Positions 46,976-56,229 of a stretch of 64,000 nt of DNA are shown piece after piece. Source of the stretch: Parafannyhessea umbonata (GTDB taxonomy: Bacteria; Actinomycetota; Coriobacteriia; Coriobacteriales; Atopobiaceae); NCBI RefSeq assembly GCF_900105025.1, contig NZ_LT629759.1:1860001-1924000 (forward strand), written 5' to 3'. Both the position numbers and the translations under genes were made by a program. Numbering within the stretch: position 1 is the stretch's first letter; each line of letters begins with the position of its first letter. A model generated the notes under the pieces. It was not told where the DNA came from. It made no database searches and saw only the letters and a program-made list of their open reading frames with translations.

Positions 46976-47491
46976 ATGTCCGTCGACCTGAGATTGAGGC
47001 ACGACCGGTCGCTGCGCGAGCGCGCAGCCGAGATGTTCGAGAGGGGCCTCGGCTACGGGTCCGTCGCAAGGGGGCTTGGCGTGCCCGCCGAGGCTGTGAG
47101 AAACTGGCAGAAGACGTACCGCGCGACCGGGAGGGACGGCCTGCTGAAAATGGGCGAGAAGCACGCGAGATACGACTTCGAGACCAAGGTCGCCGCAGCC
47201 AGGGCCGTGGTCGACGACGGGATGGCCAAGCCCGAGGCGATGGAGCGCTTCGGCATCGCGAGCGCGACGCCGCTGAAGCAGTGGTGCAGGCTGTACCGCG
47301 GGGGCGGGGCCGAGGCCCTGAGGCCCAAGCCGAAGGGCAGGCCGAGGGGGTCGGGCGCGAAGGCCGCGCCGATGACCCGCGAGCAGGAGCTCGAGCGCGA
47401 GGTCAGGAGGCTCGAGGCGCAGGTGGCGTACCTAAAAAAATCGATAGCCCTGAAGGCGGAGCTGCGCTCCCGAACCGGGAGAAGGCCCTAG
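46976..47491 (+). CDS. IS3-family transposase OrfA, copy 2
   Basis: Identical in sequence to copy 1 OrfA (171 residues). ATG 46976 has GGGAGG six bases upstream; a further in-frame start at 46916 lies inside the terminal repeat and is unlikely. Helix-turn-helix units precede a C-terminal zipper. Confidence 0.92.
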   Translation: MSVDLRLRHDRSLRERAAEMFERGLGYGSVARGLGVPAEAVRNWQKTYRATGRDGLLKMGEKHARYDFETKVAAARAVVDDGMAKPEAMERFGIASATPLKQWCRLYRGGGAEALRPKPKGRPRGSGAKAAPMTREQELEREVRRLEAQVAYLKKSIALKAELRSRTGRRP

Positions 47492-48348
47492 CGGTCGCCG
47501 AGCTTTCAGGGCGGCACGACCTCTCCGACCTCCTCGAGGCCGCCGGCCTCCCCAGGTCGAGCTACTACTACGCCGTCTCGCACCCCAAGGCCCCCACCAG
47601 GCCGGAGCTGCGCGCCAGGGTGACGGAGATCTTCGGCAGGCTCCCCAACGGCGTCGGCCACAGGCAGGTGGCGATGGAGCTGCGCGCCGTCGACGGCGCG
47701 CGGATAGCGGACAAGACCGTGCTCAAGATGATGAACGAGATGGGCCTCAGGTGCGGCATCCGCCGGGAGACCGACCACCACAGGTACAGCTCCTACAGGG
47801 GGAAGGTCGGCGAGACCTTCGAGAACGTGCTCGGCCGCGACTTCGCCGCCGACGGCCCCTGGCAGAAGATGGGCACCGACGTCACCGAGTTCAAGTGCGG
47901 GTTCGGCAAGGCCTACCTCGCGCCCGTGTACGACTTCGGCAGCAAGGAGATCGTGGCCTGGTCGGTCTCGGAGCATCCGGACCTCGCTCAGCAGGAGGAG
48001 ATGCTCTCAATGCTCGTGGCGGCGAAGCCGGAGGGCGCGGCGCCGGTCCTGCACTCCGACATGGGCTGGCAGTACCAGCACGTGTCCTACGTCGCGAAGC
48101 TCAGGGAGAACGGCTTCGTGCAGAGCATGTCGCGCAAGGGCAACTGCATCGACAACGGCGCCACCGAGCAGGTCTTCGGCCACCTGAAGGACGAGTTCTA
48201 CAGGGGCAGGGACTGGGAGACGTTCGAGGAGTTCAAGCGCGACCTCGAGGCGTACATCCACCATTGGAACCATGCGAGGCGCCAGGCCAAGCTGAAGGGC
48301 CTGACCCCGATCGAGTTCCGGGACCAGGCCCTCCGGGGGGCCGCCTAG
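47440..48348 (+). CDS. IS3-family transposase OrfB (made by -1 frameshift), copy 2
   Basis: The 302-residue DDE portion, identical to copy 1. The slippery A7 is at 47434-47440 (codons CTA AAA AAA TCG in the orfA frame). A -1 shift on A-AAA-AAA yields a 457-residue OrfAB. DDE residues lie in GTDVTEF, LHSDMGW and NGATEQVFGHLKDEF. No inactivating changes are seen. Confidence 0.93.
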   Translation: MDSPEGGAALPNREKALAVAELSGRHDLSDLLEAAGLPRSSYYYAVSHPKAPTRPELRARVTEIFGRLPNGVGHRQVAMELRAVDGARIADKTVLKMMNEMGLRCGIRRETDHHRYSSYRGKVGETFENVLGRDFAADGPWQKMGTDVTEFKCGFGKAYLAPVYDFGSKEIVAWSVSEHPDLAQQEEMLSMLVAAKPEGAAPVLHSDMGWQYQHVSYVAKLRENGFVQSMSRKGNCIDNGATEQVFGHLKDEFYRGRDWETFEEFKRDLEAYIHHWNHARRQAKLKGLTPIEFRDQALRGAA

Positions 48349-52057: not shown

Positions 52058-52426
52058 CTACTCCGGGCGCGCGTCCTCGGCCGCATGCGACAGACCCACG
52101 CGCAGCAGCTGCTCCACGTGCTCGTCCGCAAGCGAGTAGATCATGCGCTGCCCGTCGCGGCGCGCGTTCACAAGGCCGCGGTCGCGCAGGAGCCTGAGCT
52201 GGTGCGAAATGGCGGACTGGGACACATGGCAGACTTCCTGCAGGTCAGACACGCTCTTCTCGCCCAGCACGAGCACGCCCAAGATCTGGAAGCGCGTGGA
52301 GTCGGAAAGCGCGTCGAAAATCTGCGTCGCGCTGTAGACCACGTCGTCGTTGGCGAGGTGCGCGCGAAGCGTGTCGTCGTTCGCAATCTTGCACCCGCAG
52401 CCGTTCGTCATGTGAGTTTCTGCCAT
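52058..52426 (-). CDS. ArsR/SmtB-family metal-responsive repressor
   Basis: Protein of 122 residues from ATG 52426 (AGGGAG upstream). The winged HTH is clear (DLQEVCHVSQSAISHQLRLLR). The C-terminal helix reads DEHVEQLLRVGLSHAAE, that is D-x-H-x10-H-x2-E, the alpha-5 zinc/nickel site of SmtB, CzrA and NmtR types. An extra Cys pair near the N-terminus (NGCGCKI) recalls CadC. It is a likely zinc or cadmium sensor. Its target may be the exporter at 27879, whose promoter carries an ATATG dyad; no metal transporter adjoins it here. Confidence 0.9.
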   Translation of the reverse strand: MAETHMTNGCGCKIANDDTLRAHLANDDVVYSATQIFDALSDSTRFQILGVLVLGEKSVSDLQEVCHVSQSAISHQLRLLRDRGLVNARRDGQRMIYSLADEHVEQLLRVGLSHAAEDARPE

Positions 52427-52570
52427 GCGGCTCCCTTCGGCTTGCCCGCGGCATCGCCGCGCGGCCACCACGCTTGGGCGGGCCGCGCATGCCGGGCGGG
52501 CATCACCCTAGTATAGCGGCGCCGTGCACCCACGCGGCTCGCGGTGCCCTTGCGTCACGCGACGCCACGC

Positions 52571-52602
52571 AAAAGCCGCCCGCCGCACGCGCGGCAGGCG
52601 GC
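52571..52602 (-). terminator. terminator downstream of the fatty-acid-isomerase-like gene
   Basis: On the minus strand GCCGCCTGCCGC-GCGT-GCGGCGGGCGGC is followed by TTTTG. A second small hairpin (CGCCTGCA/TGCAGGCG, about 52635-52657) precedes it. Confidence 0.8.
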
Positions 52603-52664
52603 CCAGCAAAAAATCCCAAAGCAACCCGCAGACGCCTGCAAGGTACCTGCAGGCGCCCGTAGAC

Positions 52665-54041
52665 CTAGTGGAAGAAGCGGCGCACCAGGTCGCGCGAGTA
52701 CTCCGCGGTCTCCTCCATGTCGCCAAACGACATGACCTCGCCCGCAAAGTACGTGTTGCGCTCGCCCTGCAGGGCCTCGACCTTGTCGTACCAGCCGTCG
52801 GCGTAGTCTGCCGAGCTCACATGCGGGAAGTAGTACCAGTCGTCAATCCGCTCCGTCTTCATCACGGGCAGGCCGGACTTCGCCATGTCGGAAAGCGTGG
52901 TGTCGCGCGCCTCGTCAAACGGCACGTCCTCCGCCCCCTCGTGGTTGCGCAGCGTGAACGTCACCAGCGGCTGCGCGCCCGCGTCCGGCCAGCGGTGATA
53001 GAACACCATAAGGTGGCCGCGGGTCTCGGGCGTCATGTTGGCAAAGTAGTAGTAGCTGATGTCGGGGCTCTTCTCCTCCTCCGTGCGCACGGCCATGGTG
53101 AAGTACTCCTTGTGCTGGATCTTGCCAAACAGCTCGCGCTCCTGCTCCGTGGCGTCGCCGTAGGACGTGAACATCTCAAGCGGCGTGCAGATGACCAGCT
53201 TGTCAAACTCCTGCTCCTCGCCGCCGTTCACGCGCACGTACACGTGGTCCTCCGTGCGGCGCACGGCCGTGACCTCGCTGTTGAGGTTCGCCGGATGGCG
53301 CAGCGCGCTGTTGACGCCGGTCCAGATGGAGTTGGTGCCGTTCTTCCACGTCCAGAGCCTGCCGGTGGAAAGGAACTGCTTCACGGTGAACGCGTCCAGG
53401 TACTTCAGGACGTAGGCCGCGGGAATCTCGTCGAAGTATCCGTAGCCAAAGCTCGTGAACGGCCCCTTCCACACAAGCTCGGCGTCCTCGCAGTCGTTCA
53501 GCTTAAGAAACTCGCTAAACGGCATGCTCAGGTCCTTCAAGTTTGGGTTCTCGCCCTCGATGTGCGCCAGCTTCATCTTTGGAGAAGGACATGGTCCCTC
53601 GTAGCGGCCTTGTGCCACGCCGCGGTGACCGTTGACGTCGTAGCCCTTGTACTTGGTCGCGAGCAGGTGGTTGAGCTTGCGCATCTTCATGACCTTCTTG
53701 AGCAGCCCCAGCTTGCTCTCCTTGATGGGGGTGCCGTCCGTGTTCATGAAGCGACGACCCATCTGCGGGCCGTCCGCGTGGGACGTGTGGCCAAACTCCT
53801 CGCACTCGTGCACCGCGAAGTACGTGTCGCACCCCATGACCGCGCCCATCTCGATGGTACGGTCCTCCCACTCGCCCTTGCTGTTCTTCACCTTCATGAG
53901 CGGGCTGAACGCCTTGCCGCCCACTCGCCCGCTGCGCTCGAAGATGGTGTAGTGGCCAAACCCGTTCTTCTCGAGGTACATAGCCAACGAGAGCCCGGCG
54001 GGGCCTCCGCCCACGATGCAGATCCTGCTGTTCCTGTCCAC
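52665..54041 (-). CDS. FAD-dependent fatty acid (linoleate) isomerase-like protein
   Basis: Protein of 458 residues from GTG 54041 (AAAGGGGA upstream; ATG 54059 is the alternative). The FAD-binding Rossmann motif ICIVGGGPAGLSLAMYLEK lies near the N-terminus, followed by ERSGRVGGKA. Many blocks match the Propionibacterium acnes polyunsaturated fatty acid isomerase as I remember it: LLATKYKGYDVNGH, FTSFGYGYFDEIPAAYVLKY, LWTWKNGTNS, WYYFPHVSSADYADGWYDKV and NTYFAGEVMSFGD at the end. That enzyme makes trans-10,cis-12 conjugated linoleic acid. Substrate here is inferred; a general amine-oxidase-like flavoprotein is the cautious call. Confidence 0.78.
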   Translation of the reverse strand: MDRNSRICIVGGGPAGLSLAMYLEKNGFGHYTIFERSGRVGGKAFSPLMKVKNSKGEWEDRTIEMGAVMGCDTYFAVHECEEFGHTSHADGPQMGRRFMNTDGTPIKESKLGLLKKVMKMRKLNHLLATKYKGYDVNGHRGVAQGRYEGPCPSPKMKLAHIEGENPNLKDLSMPFSEFLKLNDCEDAELVWKGPFTSFGYGYFDEIPAAYVLKYLDAFTVKQFLSTGRLWTWKNGTNSIWTGVNSALRHPANLNSEVTAVRRTEDHVYVRVNGGEEQEFDKLVICTPLEMFTSYGDATEQERELFGKIQHKEYFTMAVRTEEEKSPDISYYYFANMTPETRGHLMVFYHRWPDAGAQPLVTFTLRNHEGAEDVPFDEARDTTLSDMAKSGLPVMKTERIDDWYYFPHVSSADYADGWYDKVEALQGERNTYFAGEVMSFGDMEETAEYSRDLVRRFFH

Positions 54042-54386
54042 TGGATTCCCCTTTCCCATCCGTGCTGACGCGGCATGCATGGCCTTGCGTAGACAACTGA
54101 TTCGACACTAGTTCAGTCACATTACATAATGTCTACACAAGTATACTCCGACGAGCCACCGGACCACCCAAAATTTGGAAGCAGACGACCGGACCCTCCC
54201 CGCCAGGCCAGCGCGGGGGTCCGTGGCAACAAACAGCCGCCGGATGACGAAGGTTGCCATGTGAGCCCAGCCGGAACTGGGTCCACATGGCAACCATAGC
54301 CCCGCTCCGCCCGCATTGACCCGAGAAGAGCGCGGCGCCTTTGCTCGCACGCCTTTGGCGCCTCGCGGGATGCCGCGGTCCTGGCG
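54042..54386. other. 345-bp gap with long imperfect hairpin
   Basis: Between the isomerase-like gene and gldA, both on the minus strand. It holds the hairpin at 54252-54295 and an AT-rich patch (54110-54145, TACATAATGTCTACACAAGTATAC) that may contain the isomerase promoter. I see no gene. Confidence 0.5.
54252..54295. repeat. 44-nt inverted repeat GGTTGCCATGTG...CACATGGCAACC
   Basis: Perfect 12-bp outer arms, one mismatch, one G-T pair, then inner CCCAG/CTGGG around loop CCGGAA. It lies about 90 bp downstream of the gldA stop. No T-run follows. Confidence 0.8.
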
Positions 54387-55484
54387 CTACTCGTATGCCA
54401 TGAGCTCGTTTCTGCCCAACGCGTCCGCCGCGAGCATCGCGTTCGCAACCTTCTCTGGCGTTACCTCGAACGGCATGTTGTGCAGCGTGTCGTTCGGCGC
54501 GCACGCGAGCTTCGCAACCTCAAGCACGCGGTCAAAGCTCGCGTCCTTCACGCCCAGCTGCGCAAACGTGACCGGAAGGCCAAGCTGCGCGCAGAAGTCC
54601 AGCACCTCGGGTAGCTCGTCGGCATCCTCAAGCACCAGCTGGGACAGCGTGCCAAACGCAACCTTCTCGCCGTGGTAGAACGCGTGCGTCTCGGGCATGG
54701 CGGTAAGGCCGTTGTGGATGGCGTGCGCCGCCGCGAGGCCCGCCGACTCGAAGCCCAGGCCAGAGAGCAGCGTGTTGGCCTCGATGATCTTCTCGACAGA
54801 CTCGGTGCACGCCCCTGCCTCGAGCGCGATCTTCGCCTTGACGCCGTCCGACATCAGCGTGTCGTAGCACAGACGCGCAAGTGCCATTGCCGCAGAGGTG
54901 ACCTTGTCGCCGGCGCAGGTCGTGGCGTCGGAGCGCTTGCACGCGCGCGCCTCGAAATACGTCGCGAGCGCGTCACCCATACCGCTCACGGTCAGGCGCA
55001 CGGGACTCTTGCTGATGACGTCTGTGTCCATGAGCACCAGGTTCGGGTTTGCCTTGAAGAATTGGTACTCCTTAAACTGGCCGTCGTCCGTGTACACGAC
55101 CGACAGCGCAGAGCACGGCGCGTCAGTCGCGGCGATCGTAGGAACCACGACCACCGGCGCATCCACGGCACTCGCGACGGCCTTCGCGGTGTCGAAGATC
55201 TTGCCGCCGCCGATGCCCACGATGACGTCCGAGCCCTTCTCGCGCGCGTCGCGCACAAGGCGGTCAATCTCGGCCTGCGAGCACTCGCCGTTGAACTCGT
55301 CGAAGTCGAATGCGACCTTGGCGTCCGCAAAGCTCTTCTTCACCACGTCGCCAGAGCGGCGGATGCCACCCGCCGATATCACGACAAGTGCCGTCTTGCC
55401 GTAGCTTTCCACGTAGCTGCCGAGCTTTGCCAGCTCCCCAGGACCCTGGACGTACTTGCTGGGACTGATGAACACACGTGCCAT
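54387..55484 (-). CDS. gldA: glycerol dehydrogenase
   Basis: Protein of 365 residues from ATG 55484 (AAGGGA upstream). This iron-type alcohol dehydrogenase has the NAD motif GIGGGKIFDTAK and the segment VPTIAATDAPCSALSVVY. Metal ligands are the Asp of GMGDALATYFEA and the His residues in AAAHAIHNGL and ETHAFYHGEKVAFG. It oxidises glycerol to dihydroxyacetone with NAD+. No dihydroxyacetone kinase lies nearby. Confidence 0.94.
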   Translation of the reverse strand: MARVFISPSKYVQGPGELAKLGSYVESYGKTALVVISAGGIRRSGDVVKKSFADAKVAFDFDEFNGECSQAEIDRLVRDAREKGSDVIVGIGGGKIFDTAKAVASAVDAPVVVVPTIAATDAPCSALSVVYTDDGQFKEYQFFKANPNLVLMDTDVISKSPVRLTVSGMGDALATYFEARACKRSDATTCAGDKVTSAAMALARLCYDTLMSDGVKAKIALEAGACTESVEKIIEANTLLSGLGFESAGLAAAHAIHNGLTAMPETHAFYHGEKVAFGTLSQLVLEDADELPEVLDFCAQLGLPVTFAQLGVKDASFDRVLEVAKLACAPNDTLHNMPFEVTPEKVANAMLAADALGRNELMAYE

Positions 55485-55592
55485 AGCTAATCCCTTCGAC
55501 AGATTTGATGCAAGAGGCTTACGCACCGCGCACGGCCCGCAAGCCTATGACATTAGGCGACATGCCTGGCCTCGCCCGTCCAGGCGCGTCCG

Positions 55593-56129
55593 TTAGCCCT
55601 CCTGCTTCGGCATCTTGATGCCCTGCGCGATGTGGACGAGGCCCGTATAGATGAGCGCGATGCCACCAACGGACATGGCGACGTTGGCCATGGTGAACGG
55701 AGACATGATGACGAGGATGCCCAGGATGACGGAGAGCATGGAGAGCACGATTCCTGCGCCCGAACCCCTGACGCCGAGGATGCGCAGGGCGTTGGAGCCC
55801 GCAAGCGTTGAGAACCCCGCCGCGATGACGTAGAGGCCGAGCATCACGAAGATGAAAGCGACGAAGAACTCGGGCCACGCAAGGATGAGCATGCCAAACA
55901 GGAGTGAAAGGGCGCCGGCATAGAGATCGAGCGTGGACAGGATGATGCTCCAATGCGTGAATGCCCCTATTAGGGCGATGACTCCCGCGATGGTGAGCAC
56001 CCAGCCAAAGAGGACCGTGACGCCCTTTGCCGTGGCGCCAGGATTTACGAACATGAAGATGCCCAGAACGGCGCTGGCGACGCCCCAGAGAATGGTCCCC
56101 CACTTAGAGCGCGTGAACTTGACTTGCAT
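55593..56129 (-). CDS. HdeD-family membrane protein
   Basis: Protein of 178 residues from ATG 56129. Six hydrophobic segments of 17-22 residues are arranged as three hairpins (for example WGVASAVLGIFMFVNPGATA and LYAGALSLLFGMLILAWP), the layout of DUF308/HdeD proteins. In E. coli HdeD is linked to acid resistance, but most members are uncharacterised. It ends in a short basic tail. It lies between gldA and rpoC and has no obvious operon partner. Confidence 0.82.
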   Translation of the reverse strand: MQVKFTRSKWGTILWGVASAVLGIFMFVNPGATAKGVTVLFGWVLTIAGVIALIGAFTHWSIILSTLDLYAGALSLLFGMLILAWPEFFVAFIFVMLGLYVIAAGFSTLAGSNALRILGVRGSGAGIVLSMLSVILGILVIMSPFTMANVAMSVGGIALIYTGLVHIAQGIKMPKQEG

Positions 56130-56229
56130 AACGACACCACCCCTTCGCGACCCGCAACGCACCACGGGCGCGTCACCGAACGACGTCCGAACGTTGCCTA
56201 TGGCATGTGATACCCATTTGTGCGCACGT

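Follow-up and report, generated by a model that had tools for sequence, protein, structure and literature searches.

The polyunsaturated fatty acid isomerase (PAI) of Propionibacterium (Cutibacterium) acnes acts on free fatty acids only (PMC5442254), a hydride mechanism has been described for it (PMC12131681), and work in E. coli and in Lactococcus has proven that it makes trans-10,cis-12 conjugated linoleic acid (t10,c12-CLA; PMC2885616). Domains 2 and 3 of its three-domain fold are said to be without another structural homologue (PMC2885616). The fatty acid t10,c12-CLA depresses milk fat, and its rumen producers "have been difficult to identify" (PMC11770317). When 28 cultured strains were tested, trans-10 products came from C. 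acnes only, and the authors deemed this species an unlikely main trans-10 producer in vivo; their strain table includes no Coriobacteriia strain (PMC7339423).

PAI-type genes have been reported in 7 of 228 rumen MAGs (two Lachnospiraceae, one Oscillospiraceae and four unclassified) at a criterion of at least 40% identity to PAI, so the family as such is not new to the rumen (PMC10019597). In the accessible sections of that study no difference in PAI gene abundance between high- and low-milk-fat cows is reported, while BBI differs and LAI shows a tendency, and milk t10,c12 was tied to a single Lachnospiraceae MAG with PAI and to two MAGs with LAI (rs > 0.4). The gene described below shares family and habitat with those MAG genes; the words Olsenella and Coriobacteria are absent from that paper, and its accessible sections mention neither partner genes nor transfer. 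A search of the open-licence literature found no earlier report of the isomerase in Coriobacteria (Olsenella-type Atopobiaceae), or of its transfer or partner genes.

The window, a 64,000-nucleotide stretch of DNA, belongs to a genome assembled as one contig of 2,353,093 bases that carries a single PAI-type gene; three other matches are short and confined to the FAD motif. The gene, predicted to encode a PAI-type FAD-dependent polyunsaturated fatty acid isomerase, occupies 52665..54041 on the minus strand (458 codons plus stop, GTG start) and is open from end to end. The longest version of the reading frame begins at ATG 54080 (471 residues). We prefer the GTG at 54041 because a ribosome-binding site, AAGGGGAA (54046..54053, minus strand), lies 4 nt before it, because homology to relatives starts there and because two relatives (L016 and L040) have an open frame with just one residue ahead of the matching position. 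Downstream of the stop codon lie two stable hairpins (52573..52663, minus strand; fold z -3.70, with 1 of 200 shuffles as good), which make the earlier suggestion of an own terminator plausible; a terminator pattern scan did not add to it: it found 2 candidate sites, and shuffled sequences averaged 2.4, so the count is not above chance.

To place the gene we scanned one genome per species and kept the best 80 of 418 relatives, a set that leans to close relatives because the search was seeded with window peptides. Of these best 80 of 418, Parafannyhessea umbonata 105184 is the closest that bears a name (98% protein identity; 90-97% at the DNA level over aligned blocks). It belongs to the family Atopobiaceae and class Coriobacteriia, which bears out the earlier description of a coriobacterium-like genome. 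The window's genome is that of a Parafannyhessea close to P. umbonata. Tractidigestivibacter and Olsenella isomerases within the same set are 84-85% identical to that of the window. A ruminant is mentioned in the titles of 13 of these best 80 of 418, and a further 25 have "RUG" names, presumably from a rumen MAG series, so that the "gut or oral" habitat first proposed can be narrowed towards the ruminant gut. Strains of P. umbonata, whose type strain is DSM 22620, were isolated from goat rumen fluid (PMC10901824), and the title of the species description names sheep rumen and pig jejunum (in the reference list of PMC7222830).

A phmmer search against PDB chains returned four distinct sequences at E <= 1e-5. 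The top sequence was PAI (2b9w and 5 further entries; E 1.2e-114, 386.7 bits), followed by three LkcE amine oxidase sequences at E about 7e-6, placing full-length similarity to PAI far above that to any amine oxidase. The earlier note had called the protein a homologue of the P. acnes isomerase, and PAI is indeed its only strong relative of solved structure. The two proteins are 48.5% identical over 412 aligned positions, and the C-terminal block NTYFAGEVMSFGD, also singled out beforehand, aligns with NTFYAGEIMSFGN of PAI. An AlphaFold model of the window protein (pLDDT 89.9, from 33 sequences) retrieved 2b9w first with Foldseek (E 5.7e-51, TM 0.96 by target length) and 9kp8 second (E 5.5e-23, TM 0.76). 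VIA-align matched the model to 2b9w over 420 of 423 residues (Z 52.3, rmsd 1.4), compared with Z 32.9 and rmsd 3.0 for 9kp8; the fit to 2b9w spans the whole chain, domains 2 and 3 included.

The residues expected of a PAI family member are also in place. The FAD-binding Rossmann motif ICIVGGGPAG (residues 7-16; 53994..54023, minus strand) corresponds to Pfam NAD_binding_8 (match at residues 22-60 of the 471-residue version), its GGGPAG fits the N-terminal GxGxxG of the family, and G13, P14, A15 and G16 are invariant in 33 relatives. R96 (codon at 53754..53756), F198 (53448..53450) and F223 (53373..53375), all on the minus strand, align with PAI Arg88, Phe168 and Phe193, which we take to be the gate residues, Arg88 presumably serving as gate and carboxylate contact. 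These positions hold R in 85 of 87 rows and F in 86 of 87 rows each, the exceptions being L047 (S at 88) and L110 (Y, R, L). The earlier note had allowed that the active-site set might prove unlike that of the isomerase; as far as the comparison was run, with the presumed gate roles, the set is kept. L110, a 50% identical isomerase relative from an Atopobiaceae genome (G087; also L159:4103-5476), possibly has another function, judging by its residues at these positions, and may serve as a natural control.

Apart from its percentage identity, the protein differs from C. acnes PAI in an insertion of ~28 residues after the NGH motif (about residues 140-168; 53538..53624, minus strand) and in its host, a strict gut anaerobe. 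The insertion is absent from PAI and was seen in the 15 aligned sequences printed, those of the window and of 14 relatives from both clades described below, and it is modelled with two strands (pLDDT 80-96). On sequence, predicted fold and the presumed gate residues the gene is a well-supported new member of a known enzyme family, that of PAI.

The alignment used for the tree comprised 85 of the 107 loci with a match (L001-L080 and L110-L114), the remainder being second copies of included genes. The tree falls into two clades, A and B, with fully supported defining branches. Clade A holds the window gene, and its members among the best 80 of 418 are 67-98% identical to it; clade B holds PAI and is about 50-55% identical to the window protein. 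The window gene and C. acnes PAI are therefore in different subclades, and we do not treat the subclade as a defining feature of a PAI-type isomerase. A tree constrained to group PAI with clade A is 21.7 log units worse (p-AU 0.032, L110 left out); as PAI sits on a long branch, this is moderate evidence. When 396 genomes drawn from across the phylum were screened with PAI, just two were positive, one of them the window's own, so PAI is the single row of its lineage in the tree. Within the Atopobiaceae the isomerase was detected in 22 of 140 genomes, 17 of type A and 5 of type B (near 50-56%), and each positive genome had one match, never both types.

The distribution of clade A points to horizontal transfer. 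We compared the isomerase with EF-G, obtained for 24 of 25 genomes. In 14 clade A Bacillota genomes (L014, L015, L017-L024, L026-L028 and L030) the isomerase is 74-81% identical to that of the window while EF-G is 55-63% identical; in Hugonella and Curtanaerobium (Eggerthellaceae, the same class as the window's genome) EF-G is 78% and the isomerase 53% identical. These values show that the gene spread horizontally, across phyla, and the window's copy would have been acquired in this way. The GC content of the isomerase follows that of its host flanks (L022, 39.5% vs 35.7%; L001, 63.2% vs 64.3%), so the transfer was not recent enough to leave a compositional trace. Gene and flanks agree within about 6 points in 22 clade A loci from Bacillota or an unnamed phylum, with flanks ranging from 34.7 to 63.0%. 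Contamination as the source of the Bacillota copies is unlikely given this agreement and the many separate assemblies, and is possible for single MAGs.

We surveyed neighbouring genes by tblastn at 81 loci (38 of clade A and 43 of clade B). In the window the isomerase sits inside the rpoC-rpsL interval, next to the glycerol dehydrogenase gene gldA (54387..55526, minus strand; NCBIfam, 524 bits vs a cut-off of 336), as had been noticed, and on the other side next to a gene for an ArsR/SmtB-type regulator (52058..52471, minus strand). Both neighbours accompany the isomerase in 3 of the 81 loci, all Parafannyhessea-type, and in Tractidigestivibacter ArsR and a gldA relative of 44% identity lie between rpoC and rpsL without an isomerase. 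The gldA neighbour thus says little about the isomerase substrate, the view that it suits lipid-derived substrates is not supported, and we rejected glycerol dehydrogenase as a functional partner. In the window the interval (52058-56165) includes ArsR, the isomerase, gldA and a DUF308 protein; at another locus (L162) only about 240 bases separate rpoC from rpsL, and all four genes are missing there. The interval is a variable insertion spot in a usually compact operon. Near the str operon, at 47281-48348, lies an ORF whose translation, judged by eye, resembles an IS3-type transposase/integrase.

The reading we consider quite probable is that the window gene encodes a PAI-type isomerase that converts linoleic acid into CLA, was acquired horizontally and works in this genus without a redox partner, so that CLA accumulates. 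The FAD-dependent enzyme would turn linoleic acid into a conjugated product, most likely t10,c12, in a redox-neutral reaction, by the hydride mechanism that we assume to carry over from PAI. Its use to the cell would probably be detoxification of polyunsaturated fatty acids. No reductase partner lies beside the isomerase in the window, and in Parafannyhessea, lacking a redox partner, the conjugated acid should pile up instead of being reduced further, as it does in C. acnes.

Relatives often carry such partners. In clade A, an Fe-S/FAD NAD(P)H oxidoreductase of 950-1000 residues lies downstream on the same strand at 25 of 38 loci, often 5-130 bases past the isomerase, with hypB and hypA at 17 of 38 loci each. 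It was found at 19 of 22 loci from Bacillota or an unnamed phylum and at 6 of 16 from Coriobacteriia; it is absent beside the window gene and at L001-L007, L033, L035-L037 and L016 (a short contig). At clade B loci, where flanks are often cut and counts are therefore lower bounds, we found at 43 loci at least 31 acyl ligases, 28 carotenoid-desaturase-like flavoproteins, 26 thioesterases, 26 acyl carrier proteins and 24 BenC-like reductases, as well as at least 11 Fe-S/FAD proteins (mostly 40-49%) and at least 10 FadR/GntR-like regulators. Among NCBIfam models, hypB passes its cut-off (217 bits vs 121), and no carotenoid, ligase or Fe-S model reached cut-off for the partner proteins. The clade A oxidoreductase (L018:6060-8924 and 24 further loci), in many genomes placed between hypB and hypA, has a Cys-rich and highly conserved N-terminal region of 320 residues (13 rows) with no Pfam match at E <= 1; the model of this region (pLDDT 59.3) was too poor for use.

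The association extends beyond adjacency. The Fe-S/FAD protein is present at 64% or more in 18 of 140 Atopobiaceae genomes, and 14 of these belong to the 17 genomes that carry a type A isomerase (uncorrected for descent, Fisher p is 2.9e-13 by genome and 1.1e-4 by genus); the 64% line was set after the scores were seen, and four genomes at 59-61% fall outside it. The partner adjoins the isomerase in six of these genomes (G007, G017, G076, G077, G086 and G157), lies on contigs other than the isomerase's in seven Tractidigestivibacter-type genomes and is present without an isomerase in four (G008, G022, G079 and G144). In G022 the last 32 codons of an isomerase remain 21 bases before hypB (L148:6725-6820), a remnant of a lost copy. 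Three Parafannyhessea genomes have the isomerase, but their only counterpart of the partner is 53-54% identical and of a kind widespread in Atopobiaceae, whether an isomerase is present or not. The hypB and hypA genes directly adjoin each other in the window's genome, which looks as though the partner was lost from between them or had never been inserted.

The redox or acyl-carrier genes beside the isomerase in many relatives suggest a trans-10 biohydrogenation module, and raise a tentative, wider possibility: that the window gene is one remaining part of a trans-10 biohydrogenation system that moves horizontally among gut anaerobes, and that those Atopobiaceae, Erysipelotrichaceae and Clostridia that carry it, not C. 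acnes, are the chief makers of trans-10 fatty acids in the rumen. In clade A the isomerase would usually be followed by hypB, the Fe-S/FAD oxidoreductase and hypA; in clade B it would face the acyl ligase, acyl carrier protein and acyl-ACP thioesterase genes and be followed by the carotenoid-desaturase-like flavoprotein and its NAD(P)H/2Fe-2S reductase. The partners would load the fatty acid, reduce the trans-10,cis-12 diene to a trans-10 monoene and release it, and Parafannyhessea, without them, would stop at CLA. Partner proteins in genomes without a detected isomerase make a fixed module less convincing. The Fe-S/FAD partner occurs in more distant forms in 76 of 140 genomes, which indicates a general partner family not tied to the isomerase, and the clade B flavoprotein occurs without a detected isomerase in G147, G148, G152, G154, G159 and G161. 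In G152 it is paired with the BenC-like reductase (L157:2148-4924), and five more genomes of that genus (g9) carry it; none of the six showed an isomerase, and the pair perhaps serves another conjugating enzyme.

Because PAI lies in the sister clade, regiospecificity could differ, and we lowered our claim on the exact product. The protein might instead be a PAI-family isomerase that makes c9,t11-CLA or conjugated linolenic acids or acts on a non-dietary polyene, as the distinct clade, the roughly half of residues that differ from PAI, the insertion and the clade A partner genes, unlike those of clade B, would all allow. Retention of the whole fold and of all three presumed gate residues speaks against this, as does the presence of either an A-type or a B-type match, never both, in each of the 22 positive Atopobiaceae genomes, which looks as if the two clades filled one role. 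We regard such a difference as improbable.

It is less probable still that the gene has no function or that the trans-10 fatty acids it yields are ecologically negligible. The isomerase stands alone in Parafannyhessea, the related genome G022 keeps only its fragment, and in one table of a lamb study, with no trans-10 contrast, Olsenella did not differ between two diets (PMC8355377). Opposed to these points are the intact reading frame with its good ribosome-binding site and the intact copies, 98% and 91% identical, that two other Parafannyhessea genomes carry.

That the protein is just a flavin amine oxidase or other same-fold oxidoreductase is very improbable, and we rejected this reading: although the one superfamily-level Pfam call is Amino_oxidase (44.9 bits vs a cut-off of 19.8) and no NCBIfam model exceeds its cut-off, the E-value for PAI is about 109 orders of magnitude below that for LkcE, the structural Z of 52.3 for PAI compares with 32.9 or less, and LkcE, CpaO and monoamine oxidases share the superfamily fold at 10-18% identity among the structural alignments listed, with far lower scores. 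We likewise rejected an oleate hydratase. MCRA-type oleate/linoleate hydratases and the Lactobacillus hydratase pathway resemble the PAI-type isomerase as FAD proteins that act on linoleic acid on a route to CLA, but PF06100 has no match in the window protein (Pfam, E <= 0.001) or anywhere in the genome.

As a PAI-type isomerase the protein is ordinary; the interest lies in which organisms produce trans-10 fatty acids. In one study, increases in Olsenella, in its OTU64 and in O. scatoligenes OTU984 accompanied a higher trans-10/trans-11 ratio; that study calls the "possible functions in BH" of Olsenella "unknown" (PMC9853040). More Olsenella was found in low-marbling cattle, and Bulleidia (Erysipelotrichaceae) is cited as correlated with t10,c12-CLA (PMC7222830). 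These links, like that of habitat, are correlations only, and the isomerase gene offers a mechanism for the Olsenella correlation with the rumen trans-10 shift. A gut or rumen bacterium with a close PAI relative is a ready-to-test candidate source of trans-10 CLA. T. scatoligenes SK9K4, which we take to be the former Olsenella scatoligenes, carries an isomerase 85% identical to that of the window, so a cheap test of available strains could link genus, gene and fatty acid. Since the gene is also widespread in Bacillota, it would be a better metagenome marker than 16S, and its discovery here makes an open rumen question directly testable.
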